From NCBI GenBank assembly GCA_022827885.1, contig JAJEIP010000062.1, forward strand, positions 1 to 64,000: 64,000 nucleotides of DNA. The letters run 5' to 3'. The notes beneath the pieces are model-generated. The model ran no database searches, was not told the DNA's origin, and saw only the letters and a program-made list of their open reading frames with translations. A program made the translations under genes and the position numbers. The number at the start of each line of letters is the position of its first letter. The stretch's first letter is position 1. This document shows, one piece after another, positions 28,036 through 36,629 of this stretch. The stretch comes from Candidatus Poribacteria bacterium. Lineage in GTDB: Bacteria; Poribacteria; WGA-4E; WGA-3G.

Positions 28036-28319
28036 AGCACGCGAATTTTCGGGAATTTCTCGGGCTATGGTTCGTAACTTTACCTGCATACCCCCGAGGG
28101 GCTCAAGCAGCCCACGATGCAGAACCTCAGACACTTCCGACTTCAGAAGTAGAACGAACGTTCCAACGCCTTCGAGTTACTTGGAAATGTGTGGTATGCG
28201 AAAAAATCGCCATTTCCATAGAACGATTATAGCATTTTTGACGAAATATATCAAGAAAAAAAGGAGGCAGATTTTCCTCTCCAATCTAAAGATTGGAGTT
28301 TCCAAATCTGAAGAATTTA

Positions 28320-30788
28320 ATGAATGCACCAAAAAACGTTTTTATTCTGATAAGTCTATTCATCGGACTTGCAACAATCACCGCGTTTGCAGAAGAAACG
28401 GAAAAACCCGTATTTGGTCCCCAAGCAGCCACTATCACCGAACAGCAGGTGGAAACCGAATCTGATACAGAAACAACAGATATGACAGATATGACCGAAG
28501 TAACTGGTGATTCGATGCTTCTCGTCAAGAAAGTCTCTTTTGAAGGTGTGAAAACCACCTCCGAAGATATGCTGCGCACCCTTATTCAAACACAGATTGG
28601 GCAGGAAATCTCTGAAGAACTCCTCACGCAGGACCTGAAAAGCCTCTTTAAAGACACAGGCTTCTTCTCTGAACTCACAGTAGATGTAACACCCGTTGAA
28701 GAGGGCGGATTAGAAGTCACTTACAAGGTCGTCGAAAGTCCTAAAATTTCTGGAATTAACATTATTGGAAACGAAAATTTAAGTACCGGCAAACTTAAGA
28801 ATGAAATTATACTCCGCCCCTCAGAAATTTATAGTGATCGGCGACGGTGGGAAAGCGAACGCGCTTTACAGAAAATTTACCACGAAAAAGGGTACTATCT
28901 TGTCGGCGTTCAAACCCATCTTGGCGATCGAGACGAAGAGGCAAATACTGTCCAAGTCACGTTTGAGATAAACGAAGGACCGAGAGTGCGAATTGAGGAA
29001 ATCAACTTCATTGGAAGCACACAAATCTCGGAGAATACACTCCGGAAAAAACTCAAAACCCGCACCGGTAAACACTTCGATCAGATGCTGTTTGAGGAAG
29101 AAGACTTATCACTGAACCTCAGAAATTACTATCAGGACCGCGGCTTCGCACAAGTAAAGGTCATAGGCTACGAAAAACGGTTCACAGAAGACAAAACCGG
29201 CTTAATGCTCGATATTACTGTTGATGAAGGTCCCGAATTCATTATTGGAACATATACCCTTGAGGTGGAAGCCGGTGCTAAGGAACTCTTTTCTGAAAAG
29301 AAGATACGTAAGATGCTCGACCCTGCGGAAGGCGAGGTTTTTAACCGCGCGACTTTCGACGAATCCATCGCAAATTTACAGCAAGCGTATCTCGACAAAG
29401 GCTACCTACTTTCAGAAGTTATGCCGACGCCTATCTTCAATGAAACGGAGGGCGTGGTTGACATCACCTTGAAAATTAACGAAGGGGATGTCATCGTTAT
29501 TGACAAGGTCATCATTACTGGATTAGAAAAAACACAGGAACACGTCGTTAAACGTGAGTTGGATTTCTTGGACATCAAGGCTGATGAGTTGTTAGATGTC
29601 AAAGCGCTGCGCAAAGCACGGCAACGTCTATTCCAGATGGGCTCCTTCATTCGTGCCGTTGACTTTGTCCCAAGTGATACCTCTGAAGAGAAACGAAAGG
29701 AGTTAAGAGTCAATATCGCGGAAACACCACGAACAGGGATGTTAAGTCTCGGCGGTGGATACGGCAGCGAAGGCGGTATCTTCGGTGTTGCGGAGGTTGG
29801 ACAGAACAACTTTCGCGGACGCGCGTATCGGGTGCATCTAAAAGGCGAGTTAGGCACAAGAGATCACCATACCGCTGAACTCAGTTTTGGAACCCCGTGG
29901 ATTTTGGGTACACCCACTCGGCTTAACGCAAGACTTTACGACAATCGACGCTTCCGTCGCTACTATGGAACGATCGGTGCTCTCTACAATCGTCGGAGTC
30001 TGGGAAGTACCTCCTCATACGGTCTATACGACCGGTACATTTGGGCAAGACGCGGGGCCTCACTCACCCTCGGCAGACCCATTGCCCACGACATTGATTT
30101 GTCCGTCCGTTTTCGGAATGAACACGTAGAATCACATAACCCCGACCGAGAGTTATACAATCGCTCCACACGGAGTATCCTGTTTTCCGTTGGACGAGAT
30201 ACCCGCGATTATCGGACCTCCCTGTTTGACCCAACAGCAGGTTCATTTCATACACTCTCTTATGAATACTCGGGCGGTATTCTTGGAGCGGACAATAAAT
30301 TCCAGAAATATTATGCGGACTCAAGTTTATTCTACAGCGGATGGTGGAACCACGTTATCGCCGTGCATGCTCGCGCAGGTCTCATGCGAAGTGAAAGCAC
30401 CGATGCTTATTTCCTCTTCTACGAAAGGTTCTTCCTCGGCGGTGTAGATAGTATCCGTGGCTACGACGATTGGGAAATTTATCCTGATCCAGATGAAACA
30501 GGCTTTATCAATCCCTACGGGGGTGATAAGGTCTTCTTCGCAAACTTTGAGTATCGTGTTCCAATTTCTCAGCAGCTCACGGGAGCACTGTTTTTTGATA
30601 TAGGACAGGTATGGGATGAAAGCACTGCAAACGTCTTCAGCGAAATCAACATGAAACGGGGGCTTGGTCTTGAGGCGCGGTTCACCATGCTTGGCATGTT
30701 AGTTCGGTTAGGTTGGGGATATGGCTTGGATCGCATTAGCGGCGAACCTGCTGGCAAATTCCACTTCACGGTTGGTCCCGGATTTTAA
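28320..30788 (+). CDS. bamA: Outer membrane protein assembly factor BamA
   Basis: POTRA repeats (VKKVSFEGVKTTSEDML...), C-terminal barrel with GGVDSIRGYDDWEI and terminal GPGF. Confidence 0.95.
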   Translation: MNAPKNVFILISLFIGLATITAFAEETEKPVFGPQAATITEQQVETESDTETTDMTDMTEVTGDSMLLVKKVSFEGVKTTSEDMLRTLIQTQIGQEISEELLTQDLKSLFKDTGFFSELTVDVTPVEEGGLEVTYKVVESPKISGINIIGNENLSTGKLKNEIILRPSEIYSDRRRWESERALQKIYHEKGYYLVGVQTHLGDRDEEANTVQVTFEINEGPRVRIEEINFIGSTQISENTLRKKLKTRTGKHFDQMLFEEEDLSLNLRNYYQDRGFAQVKVIGYEKRFTEDKTGLMLDITVDEGPEFIIGTYTLEVEAGAKELFSEKKIRKMLDPAEGEVFNRATFDESIANLQQAYLDKGYLLSEVMPTPIFNETEGVVDITLKINEGDVIVIDKVIITGLEKTQEHVVKRELDFLDIKADELLDVKALRKARQRLFQMGSFIRAVDFVPSDTSEEKRKELRVNIAETPRTGMLSLGGGYGSEGGIFGVAEVGQNNFRGRAYRVHLKGELGTRDHHTAELSFGTPWILGTPTRLNARLYDNRRFRRYYGTIGALYNRRSLGSTSSYGLYDRYIWARRGASLTLGRPIAHDIDLSVRFRNEHVESHNPDRELYNRSTRSILFSVGRDTRDYRTSLFDPTAGSFHTLSYEYSGGILGADNKFQKYYADSSLFYSGWWNHVIAVHARAGLMRSESTDAYFLFYERFFLGGVDSIRGYDDWEIYPDPDETGFINPYGGDKVFFANFEYRVPISQQLTGALFFDIGQVWDESTANVFSEINMKRGLGLEARFTMLGMLVRLGWGYGLDRISGEPAGKFHFTVGPGF

Positions 30789-30923: not shown

Positions 30924-31469
30924 ATGAAACCCTTTCGGTTGGGTGCTTATCCAGCACGCCTAACACTCTTAATTGTCGGTCTTACAGTTTTCTGTCTCAG
31001 TTCGGGCAGCATCGGACAGGAATCTTTCAAAATTGGTGTCGTAAACACACAAGAAGTTTTAGAAGGATCCCAAAAAGCGACGGATGCAACCGAACTGCTC
31101 CAAGCGGCAAGCGAACGCCTGAAAACGAAATTGCAGCAGTTAGAAGACGAGATCAGAACGCTCCAAGAAAAGAAGGCGAAAACCGAACTCTTCGTCGAAA
31201 GAGCGCAGACCGCGGATTTGGATAACGAAATTCGCCTCAAACAGCAGGAATACCAACGTGAGGTCCAAATCGGTCAGCAGGCATTGCTTGAAAAAGAGCA
31301 AGAGTTGATGGAGCCGATTTACAATAGCCTTCAAGCACTGATTATCAAAGTCGGTGAGTCCGAAGATTTCGACATCATCCTCGAAAAACGACTCATCACC
31401 CTTTATGTGAAAAAGGATTACGATTTGACACAACAGTTAATCGGCTTGATGAACGAAGGCTCCGAATAA
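30924..31469 (+). CDS. OmpH/Skp-family periplasmic chaperone
   Basis: Signal peptide; FKIGVVNTQEVLEGSQKATDA, coiled coil; between bamA and lpxD. Confidence 0.88.
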   Translation: MKPFRLGAYPARLTLLIVGLTVFCLSSGSIGQESFKIGVVNTQEVLEGSQKATDATELLQAASERLKTKLQQLEDEIRTLQEKKAKTELFVERAQTADLDNEIRLKQQEYQREVQIGQQALLEKEQELMEPIYNSLQALIIKVGESEDFDIILEKRLITLYVKKDYDLTQQLIGLMNEGSE

Positions 31470-31554: not shown

Positions 31555-32607
31555 ATGCGTATGAAACTCAAGGAAATTTGTGAACGCTTGGATGGCGATC
31601 TTTCTGGGGACGGTGATATTGAAATTACTGGCGTTTCTGGAATCAAAGAGGCACTCCCAAGTCAGATTACCTTCGTTGCTAACCCGAAATACCTCGCTGC
31701 CATAGCGACAACACAAGCAGGCGCAATTATTATTGGCCGCGGTGTCAACGGTAACGGTAAGCCTACCATCTGTGTTGAGAATCCCTACTGGGCTTTCGTC
31801 AAAGTTATAGAAATGTTCGCGTGGGACAAAAACCATCGTGCACTTCCCGGGGTCCATGAAACCGCAATTTTAGGAAAAAACGTTAAACTCGGTGAGCGCG
31901 TTTCTATCCAAGCGTTTGCCTATATCGCGGACAACGTTGAAATTGGAGATGATACCGTTATTCAACCGTTTGTTCACATCGGTGAAGGCACCAAAATCGG
32001 TTCCGATGGCCTAATTTATCCACATGTCAGTATTCGAGAAGAAATAATTATCGGCGATCGAGTGATTATCCACTGCGGGGCAGTGATTGGCAGCGACGGT
32101 TTCGGATTCGCACCCGTTAGCAACCGACACCACAAAATCCCTCAAATCGGAACTGTGGTCATTGAAGACGATGTTGAAATTGGAGCGAATACTACCATTG
32201 ATAGAGCAACACTCTCTGAAACACTTATCAAACGCGGCACTAAATTGGATAATCTCGTCCAAATTGCACACAATGTTGTTATCGGAGAGGATTGTTGCCT
32301 CGCGGCGCAAGTCGGTATCGCTGGCAGCACGACGCTCGGGGACCGAGTAAATATCGCGGGGCACGGCGGCGCAGCAGGGCATCTGACACTCGGCGAAGAC
32401 AGTGTCGTTTACGCCAAATCCGCAGTTACAAAGGACATGCCCGCTGGCAGTCATCTGTCTGGATTCCCCGCACGTCCTCACAAACAGGAACTCCGGATTC
32501 ACGCCGCGACTCGGAAATTGCCAGAACTGCTCCCCGAATTCACTAAACTCCAAAAACGGGTCGCGGAACTGGAAGCGAAACTTCAAGAACTGGAGGATAA
32601 ACCGTAG
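31555..32607 (+). CDS. lpxD: UDP-3-O-acylglucosamine N-acyltransferase
   Basis: Hexapeptide repeats, IHCGAVIGSDGFGFAP, IAHNVVIGEDCCLAAQVGIAGS. Confidence 0.95.
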   Translation: MRMKLKEICERLDGDLSGDGDIEITGVSGIKEALPSQITFVANPKYLAAIATTQAGAIIIGRGVNGNGKPTICVENPYWAFVKVIEMFAWDKNHRALPGVHETAILGKNVKLGERVSIQAFAYIADNVEIGDDTVIQPFVHIGEGTKIGSDGLIYPHVSIREEIIIGDRVIIHCGAVIGSDGFGFAPVSNRHHKIPQIGTVVIEDDVEIGANTTIDRATLSETLIKRGTKLDNLVQIAHNVVIGEDCCLAAQVGIAGSTTLGDRVNIAGHGGAAGHLTLGEDSVVYAKSAVTKDMPAGSHLSGFPARPHKQELRIHAATRKLPELLPEFTKLQKRVAELEAKLQELEDKP

Positions 32608-32782: not shown

Positions 32783-33631
32783 ATGAAGACATTGATCGCG
32801 TATGTTGAGTTGGCACGCCCACTTAACGGAATCATCGCCTTCATCTCTGCGGGGCTCGGTGGAATTTTTGCCAGCCAAGGCAACCTGGAACACCTCACCG
32901 ATATCCGACTACTGTTGGTTTCTGTTGCCGCGCTTGTTGTAATCTCTGCCGGAAACGCCATCAACGATTACTGTGATTACGACATCGACCGAATTAATCG
33001 TCCACGGCGACCGCTCCCTTCCGGACGCATTCGGCGTTCCAATGCATTAATTTTTGCAATAATCCTTACGGCAATCGGCATCTATCTCGGAACCCGTATC
33101 AACAGAAATTCAACAGCCATTGCTATCCTGGTGTCGGTTGCCCTTGCAAGTTATGCTTTTTGGTTGAAACGTACCCCTTTTGTCGGCAATTTGGTCGTTA
33201 GTGGATTAACGGGTTTAACCTTCATTGCTGGCGGCGTAGCGATAGATTCGGTGCAAGGCACGCTCATTCCAGCAATCTTTGCCTTTTTGTTCACAACGGC
33301 GCGGGAAATCATCAAGGACCTTGAGGATACAGAAGGAGACGAGAAAAATGACGCGAAAACGTTGGCGACACTCAACCCACGGATCGCAGTCCGGACAGCC
33401 ATCGGTTTTATGGCATCTGTTATTTTGTTTAGTCCCATCCCTTATGTATTCGGTTGGTATTCATGGCACTACTTGATTGTCGTTAGCATCGGTGTTGACG
33501 TGGTACTTATCGGTTTGGCAATTCGTCTGTGTCAAGATGCCTCCAAAGAGAGTTGTGCCGCCATTCAACGTTGGATGAAATGGGATATATTCGTCGGACT
33601 CGGCGCGATCTATCTCGGAACGTTTCTATGA
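32783..33631 (+). CDS. UbiA-family prenyltransferase (DGGGP synthase-like)
   Basis: ARPLNGIIAFISAGLGG, NAINDYCDYDIDRINRPRRPLPSGRI, DLEDTEGDEKNDAKTL. Confidence 0.88.
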   Translation: MKTLIAYVELARPLNGIIAFISAGLGGIFASQGNLEHLTDIRLLLVSVAALVVISAGNAINDYCDYDIDRINRPRRPLPSGRIRRSNALIFAIILTAIGIYLGTRINRNSTAIAILVSVALASYAFWLKRTPFVGNLVVSGLTGLTFIAGGVAIDSVQGTLIPAIFAFLFTTAREIIKDLEDTEGDEKNDAKTLATLNPRIAVRTAIGFMASVILFSPIPYVFGWYSWHYLIVVSIGVDVVLIGLAIRLCQDASKESCAAIQRWMKWDIFVGLGAIYLGTFL

Positions 33632-34848
33632 TAAACTACGATAGGGTCATTGCTTTCTTAGAGAAAGAGAACTCAAAGGCTGATGCCGTTTCCCGTTTTA
33701 AGCAAGCGTATCATACCTTCTGTAAAACGGGGACATGGTCCCCCGCATATCAGATATTTGTCTCAGGTTGGCAGCGGCTTGACGGGGTTATGTTGTTAGA
33801 ACCGGAGGACACATTTGACAATGGCTACCGAGTTCATCTCACACCGACAACGGAACGAAGTTTGAGAGAACTCCTCCTCGCCTTTCCGAGACGCTACACA
33901 GGACTGTTTCATGTCAACGAAAAATGGATAACAAACAGAATCCACGATGTTTTAGAAGGCGATATAATTCAGACGGATACAGGTTCCTGCTATCGGGGTA
34001 TCAAACGCGGGAGCAGCACCAGCGCGGAACAACGAACCATCTCGAAACGGAAAGATATAATCGTATCGCACATTCACAAATTAGCCTCTTTGAAGGGGAA
34101 ACTTGAACACTCCGAATTTATCGTTGAAGGCCCTCTGATAGTAGAAAGAGCCGTCACAGATGGACTCCCGATCAAAACAATTCTCTATACGACCGGATTT
34201 GTGGCAACCTCGGAAGGGAAAGCTTTGCTCACGCAGGCAGCGTCAGAAAACCTATCTGTTTATCAGGTAAATGATGGCATGATGGGTTCAATTACGACAA
34301 CACGCCCCGTGCCATCTATAATCGCTTCGGTTCATCTCAGCTATCCAAACTTCCTTTCGGCATCCGGAAGCCTTAATTTTCACTGGAGCTCAAGATGTGT
34401 ATTGCTCATCGCAGAGAATATTGGCAATCCTGACAACCTCGGAATGACGTTACGGACAGCAGACGCAGCGGGCGTATCCGCAGTTCTCCTGAGTGATAGT
34501 GGCGCGAGCCCTTTTCATAAAAACTGCATCCGTGCCTCCCGAGGGGCAGTCGGTCGCTTACCTTTATTCTCTACACCAAACATCAGCGATGCGGTTGATG
34601 CGCTCCGTGTCTCAGGTTGGCAGGTGTTGGGCGCCACAGCAAGTGCCACAAACCAACTTCATGAAATAGAATTTACACTTCCCACGGCTATCGTCGTCGG
34701 TAACGAGAATACAGGGCTCTCCACTGATGCACGGGATAGCTGCACTGAATTAGTTCGCATCCCTATGGCATCAGGGCAATCATCACTGAACGTAGGTGTT
34801 GCCGCAGGTATTCTACTCTATGAACTGACGCGACAACACAGAATTTGA
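33628..34848 (+). CDS. TrmH/SpoU family RNA methyltransferase with extra N-terminal region
   Basis: LIAENIGNPDNLGMTLRTADAAG, VVGNENTGLS, IPMASGQSSLNVGVAAGILLYE; ATGA overlap with the UbiA gene. Confidence 0.9.
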   Translation: MINYDRVIAFLEKENSKADAVSRFKQAYHTFCKTGTWSPAYQIFVSGWQRLDGVMLLEPEDTFDNGYRVHLTPTTERSLRELLLAFPRRYTGLFHVNEKWITNRIHDVLEGDIIQTDTGSCYRGIKRGSSTSAEQRTISKRKDIIVSHIHKLASLKGKLEHSEFIVEGPLIVERAVTDGLPIKTILYTTGFVATSEGKALLTQAASENLSVYQVNDGMMGSITTTRPVPSIIASVHLSYPNFLSASGSLNFHWSSRCVLLIAENIGNPDNLGMTLRTADAAGVSAVLLSDSGASPFHKNCIRASRGAVGRLPLFSTPNISDAVDALRVSGWQVLGATASATNQLHEIEFTLPTAIVVGNENTGLSTDARDSCTELVRIPMASGQSSLNVGVAAGILLYELTRQHRI

Positions 34849-34873
34849 CAAATCGACATAAATATGATAGAAT
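34845..34873 (+). promoter_or_regulatory. sigma70-like promoter upstream of GGGP synthase
   Basis: TTGACA, 17-nt spacer, TAGAAT. Confidence 0.5.
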
Positions 34874-34967
34874 TTTTAAGGTAACTGATGCGCTATAAGT
34901 CCCCACTATCAGAAAGGGCATAGCATTCAAACCGATATTTAGCATAGTCAAAGAAGGAAAATCGCAT

Positions 34968-35714
34968 TTGAGATCGAATTGGGTTCTTAACTACTTTCAC
35001 GAGGTATTGAAAAAGCACCATGCTGGTTATTTCGTTCTAATTGATCCGGAGCAGTGTGAAATTGGAAAATGCGTTAAACTTGCAAGCGAAATAGAGCAGG
35101 CGGGGGCAGACGCGATTTTGCTCGGTGGCAGTTTTTTAACGAACGATTTGCACCACGTCGCGAAAGCCCTTAAGCAGGAAACAGAACTCCCCGTGGTGTT
35201 ATTTCCGGGTGATTCGATGCACCTCACTCCGCATGCCGATGCGATTCTGTATATCAGTCTCATAAGTGGACGCAATCCGAACTATCTCATTGGCGAACAG
35301 GTCAAAGCGGCACCGCGGATACAACGTTACGCGCTGCCCCCCATTCCAACGGGCTATATGCTGATTGAAGGCGGCAACAAAACCGCCGTTGAATTTATGA
35401 GTGGCACAATGCCCATCCCACGCGATAAACCCGACATTGCGGGACCGCATGCCTTGGCTGCCCAGTATCTCGGTATGCAGATGGTATATCTGGAGGCAGG
35501 GAGTGGTGCTGAACACTCTGTCCCAGAAGCGATGATCACAACAGTGAAAAATCAAATTAGCATCCCACTCATCGTCGGTGGAGGCATCCGCACACCAGAA
35601 ATTGCTGCACAGAAGGTAGAAGCAGGGGCGGATTTCATCGTTACAGGGAACATTCTCGAAGAAAACGGATCTCTCGAACTGATGCGGGAATTTGCTAACG
35701 CCGTTCACGACTAA
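34968..35714 (+). CDS. Geranylgeranylglyceryl/heptaprenylglyceryl phosphate synthase family
   Basis: FVLIDPEQ, AGADAILLGGS, LFPGDSMHLTPHADAILYISLISGRNPNYLIGEQ, YLEAGSGAEHSVP, PLIVGGGIRTPE; TTG start with upstream GAAGGA. Confidence 0.92.
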   Translation: MRSNWVLNYFHEVLKKHHAGYFVLIDPEQCEIGKCVKLASEIEQAGADAILLGGSFLTNDLHHVAKALKQETELPVVLFPGDSMHLTPHADAILYISLISGRNPNYLIGEQVKAAPRIQRYALPPIPTGYMLIEGGNKTAVEFMSGTMPIPRDKPDIAGPHALAAQYLGMQMVYLEAGSGAEHSVPEAMITTVKNQISIPLIVGGGIRTPEIAAQKVEAGADFIVTGNILEENGSLELMREFANAVHD

Positions 35715-35777: not shown

Positions 35778-36629
35778 ATGGCTGAAGTTAAAGAAATACA
35801 CATAGAAACAGAAAAAGAGACAGAAACGGAAGTGCCTGCTGATAACGCTTCCAGCACGGGTAAAGAAAAAACGATTGCCGAGCGAATGCGAGAAATCGCG
35901 GAGGCGGCACTTGATACAGTCAAATCGGAAGTAAAAAAGGAGATAGAAGAACGCATCGCACCTGTCGAAGAAACAGCTGCCAACCTCACCTCCGATGTTA
36001 AAGACGAGGTTGAAGCGATCGTGCAAAGGGTGCGTGAGCAATACGAATCAGAACGCGAAGACTTATTGCACACGGAAATCGAAAAAGAGGTAGAAACCGC
36101 TGTCCAACAGGTCCATGAGGAATATAAAGCCGAACGCGATCGTCTTCTACGCACAGCAGCAGAAGCTGAGAATACCAAAAAACGCTTGCAAGTGGATTAC
36201 CAACGGCAACTCAAATTCGCCAATGAGGGAATTTTAGAAGGCATGATCCCGGTCTTGGACAGTCTGGAAGCCGCGATCAAAAGCGCAGCAGAACAAGGCG
36301 AAGCGAGCGATGCGTCGCAAGCTTTCATGACCTTCAACGAAGGCGTGCAACTCGTTCATAAACAACTCTTAGATGCCCTCAGAATCCACGGCCTGACATC
36401 CATTGAAGCAGTTGGTGAAATATTCGATCCAAATCAGCACGAGGCACTTTTGGTCACAGCATCGGACGATGTACCAGAAGGAAAAGTTATTGAGGAATTT
36501 CGGCGTGGCTACATGTTGCATACTCGTGTTCTACGCGCCTCTCAAGTGGTCGTCTCTCAGGGACCCGCCGAAGAAGACGCATCAGACGACGTGTCGGATG
36601 ATACAGATGCTACTGATACTACCGAATAG
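35778..36629 (+). CDS. grpE: Nucleotide exchange factor GrpE
   Basis: Long acidic coiled coil; NEGILEGMIPVLDSLEAAI, FDPNQHEAL, RRGYMLHTRVLRASQVVVS. Confidence 0.92.
   Translation: MAEVKEIHIETEKETETEVPADNASSTGKEKTIAERMREIAEAALDTVKSEVKKEIEERIAPVEETAANLTSDVKDEVEAIVQRVREQYESEREDLLHTEIEKEVETAVQQVHEEYKAERDRLLRTAAEAENTKKRLQVDYQRQLKFANEGILEGMIPVLDSLEAAIKSAAEQGEASDASQAFMTFNEGVQLVHKQLLDALRIHGLTSIEAVGEIFDPNQHEALLVTASDDVPEGKVIEEFRRGYMLHTRVLRASQVVVSQGPAEEDASDDVSDDTDATDTTE

Follow-up and report, generated by a model that had tools for sequence, protein, structure and literature searches.

Candidate archaeal-type ether-lipid genes in Candidatus Poribacteria and their relation to a four-gene cassette with a putative selenoprotein reductase

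Can a bacterium that carries genes for outer-membrane assembly and lipid A also encode the enzymes that form archaeal-type ether lipids? The question is raised by a stretch of 64,000 nucleotides (hereafter the window) from a genome of Candidatus Poribacteria (5.13 Mb in 148 contigs, 96.7% complete), a group known mostly from sponges. The features concerned are the following:

28293..30788, + strand: bamA/Omp85 (outer-membrane assembly), conserved neighbour on the upstream side
30924..31469, + strand: skp/ompH periplasmic chaperone, conserved neighbour on the upstream side
31555..32607, + strand: lpxD (lipid A acyltransferase), conserved neighbour on the upstream side
32783..33631, + strand: UbiA-superfamily prenyltransferase of the DGGGP-synthase (DGGGPS) type, 282 aa (models, match to the M. 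jannaschii enzyme MjDGGGPS, residues, tree, predicted fold)
33628..34848, + strand: TrmH/SpoU 2'-O-methyltransferase, between the two lipid genes
34968..35714, + strand: GGGP synthase (GGGPS), predicted group II, 248 aa, TTG start (TIGR01769 above cut-off, solved-structure matches)
35778..36629, + strand: grpE, 3' of GGGPS, conserved neighbour

An earlier note on this DNA had described the two lipid genes as separated by one TrmH gene and lying just downstream of bamA-skp-lpxD, and the open reading frames are located exactly so. The UbiA and TrmH frames overlap by 4 bases, at the stop of the first and the ATG of the second, and GGGPS is followed by grpE-dnaJ-prmA. The arrangement is not a matter of chance: relatives have the gene order bamA-skp-lpxD-UbiA-TrmH-GGGPS-grpE-dnaJ-prmA as well, and in 26 of 29 poribacterial loci UbiA stands beside GGGPS. 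TrmH is probably a bystander; in genome G045 (locus L066) lpxD, TrmH and grpE are directly consecutive, UbiA and GGGPS both being deleted while the TrmH between them stays, and in deep Poribacteria no TrmH is found between UbiA and GGGPS.

The product of 34968..35714 is predicted to be a group-II GGGPS. It scores above the cut-offs of TIGR01769 (GGGP; 223.7 bits, cut-off 161.55) and of the PRK04169.1-2 subfamily (292.9 bits, cut-off 247). Its nearest solved structures are 4mm1 (E = 5e-56) and 4jej (E = 3e-50), which we take to be the GGGPSs of Methanothermobacter (M. thermautotrophicus) and Flavobacterium johnsoniae, respectively. The heptaprenylglyceryl phosphate synthase PcrB of Bacillus belongs to the same homologous TIM-barrel family (PF01884), but PcrB chains match the window protein with E-values of 6e-6 to 1e-5 only. 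The earlier call of a GGGP/heptaprenylglyceryl phosphate synthase is thus borne out on its GGGPS side by a curated cut-off and by solved GGGPS structures. The protein is 71–98% identical to proteins in 29 Candidatus Poribacteria records. No second GGGPS copy was found in the source genome, where the other PF01884 match is TrpA-like, and a GGGPS search of a plasmid collection gave no match.

The product of 32783..33631 matches PF01040 with 148 bits, and its best NCBIfam models are the DGGGPS-type PRK12884 and PRK12882, with scores below the equivalog cut-offs (232 against 269 bits and 214 against 296 bits, respectively). The best solved sequence match is the M. jannaschii DGGGPS 6m31 (E = 1e-37, 33% identity), the runner-up being at ~1e-7. 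Eight residues of MjDGGGPS reported to be catalytic or substrate-positioning (PMC9385802), N62, D66, D70, Y125, K130, D180, D183 and D187 of motifs 1, 2 and 3, are all conserved (8/8), and the Asp motifs are also found in deep poribacterial relatives. A motif resembling REI(I/V)KD-x-ED-x-EGD occurs in Poribacteria and archaea and in none of the other UbiAs of the source genome. When the predicted structure was compared with the PDB, the top fold match was again DGGGPS (TM 0.78, E = 2e-13), with other UbiAs at ~1e-6. In a tree whose references were MjDGGGPS, five haloarchaeal DGGGPSs, and E. coli, Aeropyrum and own-genome quinone/heme enzymes, Poribacteria and archaeal DGGGPSs formed one clade with support of 96/97, from a small reference set (six archaeal sequences) and with some long branches; MenA, ChlG and an Acaryochloris protein were left out of this final tree because of long-branch trouble in the first one. 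The alternative topology, in which Poribacteria group with quinone UbiAs, was rejected (AU p = 0.026). As to the other UbiAs of the source genome, L039 is an MqnP-type quinone prenyltransferase, L040 is CyoE and L042 is unplaced; considered as a second DGGGPS-like UbiA, L042 was rejected, with lower scores, no D..D...D motif and a long branch. A quinone role for the window UbiA was rejected on the strength of the tree, the separate MqnP and CyoE genes and the motifs. The clustering with quinone enzymes that would have told against the earlier note's assignment to the DGGGP-synthase type is not observed, and the assignment is upheld by the clade and the conserved catalytic residues. Both genes are supported as encoding enzymes of archaeal ether-lipid type.

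Among the tunnel residues of the M. jannaschii enzyme, F148 is kept in the window UbiA, I29 is replaced by L and S171 by F. At the site of S171, part of the lining of the prenyl-donor tunnel, 12 of the 13 Poribacteria compared have Phe and one has Leu; the archaea compared have Ser or Ala. Because Phe occupies this position in Poribacteria, the prenyl-donor chain length may be different and the donor not exactly GGPP. This departure from the archaeal enzymes, the scores below the equivalog cut-offs and the readiness with which the acceptor changes among UbiA family members would fit an alternative, in which the product of GGGPS is a mono-ether lipid, like that of PcrB in Bacillus, and UbiA serves some other acceptor (quinone, heme, chlorophyll-like or unknown). 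The clustering with archaeal DGGGPSs speaks against it, as do L039 and L040, separate genes that fill the quinone and heme roles. It is further opposed by the distribution of the two genes and by their neighbours in relatives.

A search of 85 Poribacteria genomes found both genes in 72, neither in 10, UbiA alone in 2 and GGGPS alone in 1 (Fisher p = 2e-10, a value inflated by gene linkage and genome relatedness, both of which it ignores). Four of the ten double absences (G071, G072, G033 and G010) are probably assembly gaps; lpxD is missing from these genomes too. Besides the deletion in G045, two cases are informative as to the coupling of the genes. In the single-contig genome G047, UbiA and GGGPS are separated by 3.8 Mb, each still flanked by its former neighbours, and both are retained. 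In five genomes that are 88–97% complete (G018–G022), no UbiA, GGGPS or geranylgeranyl reductase (GGR) was found, and the congeneric G023 has all three. The genes are kept or lost jointly, even when unlinked, which argues against separate roles for UbiA and GGGPS.

In deep Poribacteria (L065, L080, L075 and L076), a ferredoxin and GGR lie between UbiA and GGGPS, giving the order DGGGPS-ferredoxin-GGR-GGGPS. The ferredoxin is a 72 aa protein of the 2[4Fe-4S] type, and in L074 it shares one frame with GGR. The cassette GGRs score above the TIGR02032 cut-off (215–237 bits, cut-off 158.8), and that of L075, the only one tested, matches the digeranylgeranylglycerophospholipid reductase 3oz2 of Thermoplasma acidophilum with E = 3e-81. 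GGR is present in 25 of the 85 Poribacteria, at the lipid locus in deep members; by coordinates, UbiA, GGR and GGGPS share one contig and a span of a few kb in 11 genomes (G001, G005, G011, G012, G013, G015, G016, G023, G024, G025 and G026). G014 has an intermediate layout (UbiA-TrmH-4.5 kb-ferredoxin-GGR-GGGPS-hrcA), and most members of the window's family have lost GGR or carry it at another place, in several cases together with its ferredoxin. Since the missing GGR and ferredoxin occur at the same locus in deeper Poribacteria, the window locus appears to be a reduced, two-gene version of a fuller cassette. That relatives add GGR and ferredoxin to the pair also weighs against a mono-ether lipid with an unrelated UbiA, a reading that we regard as improbable.

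The GGR frame itself has an unusual feature. In 15 genomes it contains a TGA at a codon that is TGT or TGC in 8 deeper genomes (PVR-[U/C]-AE); two further GGR matches are fragments and stand outside this count. The site aligns with Cys47 of the S. acidocaldarius GGR, a residue conserved in all archaeal GGRs and catalytically essential (PMC10821996). The reading frame continues past the TGA for 351 more codons in 13 of the 14 checked, the exception being L104, with a TAG after 18 codons. The TGA forms, that of G023 among them, all belong to families f1–f4 (the window's order) and the Cys forms, including that of G012, all to f5–f10, as expected for one Cys-to-Sec change. A general use of TGA as a sense codon was rejected because the GGR genes of L094 and L095 end in TGA. 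At a fixed place 3' of each GGR TGA there is a hairpin that agrees with the bSECIS criteria given in PMC13188914: its stem is 6–7 bp and its loop 3–5 nt, with an invariant G24 and with the loop ~19–20 nt past the TGA. Of the hairpin cells, 96.9% are paired and 14 are changed on both sides; covariation is 0.468, against 0.243 after shuffling (0/500) and at most 0.199 when the hairpin is slid. The Cys-form GGR genes checked are without the hairpin. tRNA-Sec scores above cut-off in 75 of 85 Poribacteria genomes (only just in a few), and in the source genome selB (TIGR00475, 350.6 bits) adjoins tRNA-Sec. A literature search gave no relevant link between GGR and selenoproteins, an absence that is no proof of novelty; in a 2026 selenoproteome review, GGR is not in the list and the word geranylgeranyl is absent.

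The earlier note had named G1P dehydrogenase (G1PDH), GGR and CDP-archaeol synthase as further genes to look for in the genome; of the first only a distant relative was found, and of the other two neither. No CarS was found in the source genome, only a bacterial CdsA (L003); a PF01864 match at C144 is actually CdsA. According to work cited in PMC7852524, CdsA is able to replace CarS. Neither a GGR above cut-off nor the ferredoxin of the cassette was found in the source genome, the best TIGR02032 match (L043, 134 bits, cut-off 158.8) being CmlS-halogenase-like. As to G1PDH, four of five PF13685 matches prove to be AroB or ordinary Fe-ADH, and the remaining one, L004, is a distant relative that keeps residues of the SR..GSEH and LHGE metal-site motifs and lies far below the PRK00843 cut-off (120 against 413 bits). 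It adjoins an unrelated beta-propeller (PD40) gene, and its distribution does not track that of GGGPS, the L004-type gene being absent from several GGGPS-bearing lineages (for example genus g4); it is not counted as an established G1PDH. A closer AraM/EgsA-like enzyme is found only in G003 and G004. For prenyl supply the source genome has two trans-polyprenyl synthases, and dxr lies next to cdsA.

Alternatively, the pair might be a relic in decay within the window's family: once ferredoxin and GGR had gone, the lipid would no longer be made and the two genes would be in the course of being lost, or the enzymes would act in reverse to degrade lipids of sponge archaea. GGR and ferredoxin are absent from the window's own genome, G045 shows a clean double deletion, all three genes are absent in G018–G022, and the possibility of a catabolic role has been mentioned for bacteria without G1PDH (PMC6431249). 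Against this stand frames that are intact and strongly conserved, 62–95% identical and fixed at the active-site residues in 17 aligned relatives, a gene order preserved across the window's family, and the retention of both genes in most genomes of the window's genus, and we consider this explanation, too, an unlikely one. That archaeal DNA entered the MAG by an assembly or binning artefact has a negligible probability and can in practice be dismissed, given the recurrent synteny: the source genomes with titles shown are all MAGs and sponges host archaea too, but the genes are flanked by the bacterial housekeeping genes lpxD and grpE in many independent assemblies, single-contig chromosomes included, and differ clearly in sequence from their archaeal counterparts (33% identity to MjDGGGPS).

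We consider it probable, with fair confidence, that UbiA and GGGPS are a functional pair making an archaeol-like diether, that the cassette has been reduced at this locus and that a selenocysteine-containing GGR exists in the order. GGGPS would link glycerol phosphate to a geranylgeranyl-type prenyl diphosphate; attachment of the second prenyl chain by the UbiA enzyme would then yield an archaeol-like diether phosphate (DGGGP). Because CarS is absent, bacterial CdsA is proposed for the next step, in which it and head-group enzymes would handle DGGGP. Ancestral Poribacteria would have had the cassette DGGGPS-ferredoxin-GGR-GGGPS, with ferredoxin supplying electrons to GGR and GGR saturating the chains. 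GGR would then have become a selenoprotein in the ancestor of the window's order, Sec replacing the catalytic Cys, and in the window's family TrmH would have come to separate the two prenyltransferases, with ferredoxin and GGR lost in most members. Since these are lost, an unsaturated ether lipid is proposed for the window organism, beside ester lipids and an LPS-type outer membrane; the lipid A that the earlier note read from the presence of LpxD is likewise a prediction from a single gene. What the sequences show are the identities of the genes, the conserved residues, the phylogeny, the joint occurrence, the cassette, the TGA with its hairpin, tRNA-Sec and selB; enzyme activity, chain length, the G1P or G3P backbone and the actual lipids are all matters that we infer from them. 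Taken as a whole, the longer history is one towards which we lean only slightly: saturated archaeol-type membrane lipids, made alongside the bacterial ones through an ancient four-gene cassette, would have been ancestral, the Sec-GGR of the window's order would be a selenoprotein family outside the published list, and the saturation step would have been dropped in members like the window organism.

That bacteria of the FCB group and their relatives carry both GGGPS and DGGGPS was already known (PMC6431249, PMC7852524). The earlier note had pointed to FCB-group bacteria; ether-lipid genes of this type are indeed published for that group, but NCBI places Poribacteria outside FCB, as a bacterial candidate phylum. 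Coleman et al. (2019) found GGGPS and DGGGPS together in every one of the 12 FCB phyla that they examined, for the most part in the absence of G1PDH, and the text of that survey names no Poribacteria, no cassette and no selenoprotein (PMC6431249). In Candidatus Cloacimonetes (Villanueva et al., 2020), GGGPS and DGGGPS are co-localised, both are active in E. coli and a diether lipid is formed (PMC7852524). The window locus resembles that system in the co-localised genes, in the lack of CarS and in CdsA as the proposed substitute. Cloacimonetes are also described as having no egsA/araM, where the window genome has only the distant G1PDH relative, and GGR is present in the Cloacimonetes genome (PMC7852524). 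According to the same paper, bacterial co-localisation of the two genes seems restricted to Cloacimonetes and was proposed to be ancestral, Poribacteria being unmentioned in its main text (PMC7852524); in contrast, we find it widespread in a second phylum, whose deep members add ferredoxin and GGR to the cassette and in which the GGR of the window's order has Sec. A GGR-ferredoxin gene pair is known in Euryarchaeota (PMC9385802), and in Methanosarcina acetivorans, by the account of Isobe et al. (2014) in PMC9385802, a ferredoxin gene adjoins GGR, whose activity in E. coli was higher with the ferredoxin. The poribacterial ferredoxin differs from this pair in being upstream of GGR, in the same frame in L074, and in that both genes stand between DGGGPS and GGGPS. 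As far as could be checked, the wide occurrence and co-localisation in Poribacteria, the four-gene cassette, the joint losses and the Sec-GGR are new.

Poribacteria are thus a second bacterial phylum with adjacent ether-bond genes, which supports the published hypothesis of an ancestral co-localisation, and their natural splits and joint losses make the coupling of UbiA and GGGPS testable. The cassette of the relatives, which includes an electron carrier and has Sec in place of the catalytic Cys, provides a clean handle on the use that GGR makes of this residue. Some sponges hold Poribacteria in abundance, which would allow lipid extracts to be examined without cultivation. Judging from the sequences, Poribacteria probably cross the "lipid divide" that separates bacteria from archaea, and an archaeal- and a bacterial-type membrane kept in one living cell would bear on the origin of that divide.

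The catalytic cysteine codon of the geranylgeranyl reductase (GGR) gene is an in-frame TGA in 15 Poribacteria (loci within L091-L112), where it is accompanied by a covarying SECIS-like hairpin. This GGR selenoprotein family is absent from the 2026 published selenoprotein list that was consulted. Examples of the codon, and the selenocysteine (Sec) genes of the window's own genome, are:

L091:1630, L093:1633 and L102:1633, TGA at the GGR cysteine codon
G000:C136:18350-18439, tRNA-Sec
L122:6372-8312, selB, adjoining tRNA-Sec

Both tRNA-Sec and selB are present in the window's genome despite loss of the Sec-containing GGR. Two GGR copies from the window's family have disrupted frames: one (L104, genome G070) has a TAG 18 codons past the Sec codon and the other (L112, G035) is split between frames; these disruptions represent either decay or assembly errors.

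Two other genomes show these arrangements:

L066:3455-6722, lpxD, TrmH and grpE side by side (G045)
L074:605-2029, minus strand, ferredoxin domain and GGR in one open frame (G001)

In the former, deletion has removed UbiA as well as GGGPS but left the TrmH gene that lay between them; the single frame of the latter is probably a fusion.

Genes for related enzymes elsewhere were as follows:

L004:1357-2403 (window's genome, G000:C61), distant G1PDH-like dehydrogenase, beside a beta-propeller (PD40) protein gene
L053:1078-2415 (G004), predicted AraM/EgsA-like G1P dehydrogenase (matches the G1PDH structure 9h4x at E 2e-43)
L042:1441-2364 (window's genome, G000:C9), additional UbiA protein with weak DGGGPS-type scores

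Occurrence of the first does not track GGGPS, and the L053 type is found only in the family of G003 and G004. Homologues of tetraether synthase (Tes) have been reported in 10 of 29 Black Sea Poribacteria MAGs (PMC11868695).

The additional UbiA lacks the third Asp motif. In the window's UbiA, F170 occupies the prenyl-donor tunnel position of S171 in the M. jannaschii DGGGPS; this position is Phe in 12 of the 13 Poribacteria compared, whereas archaeal DGGGPS have Ser or Ala. This residue may set donor length.
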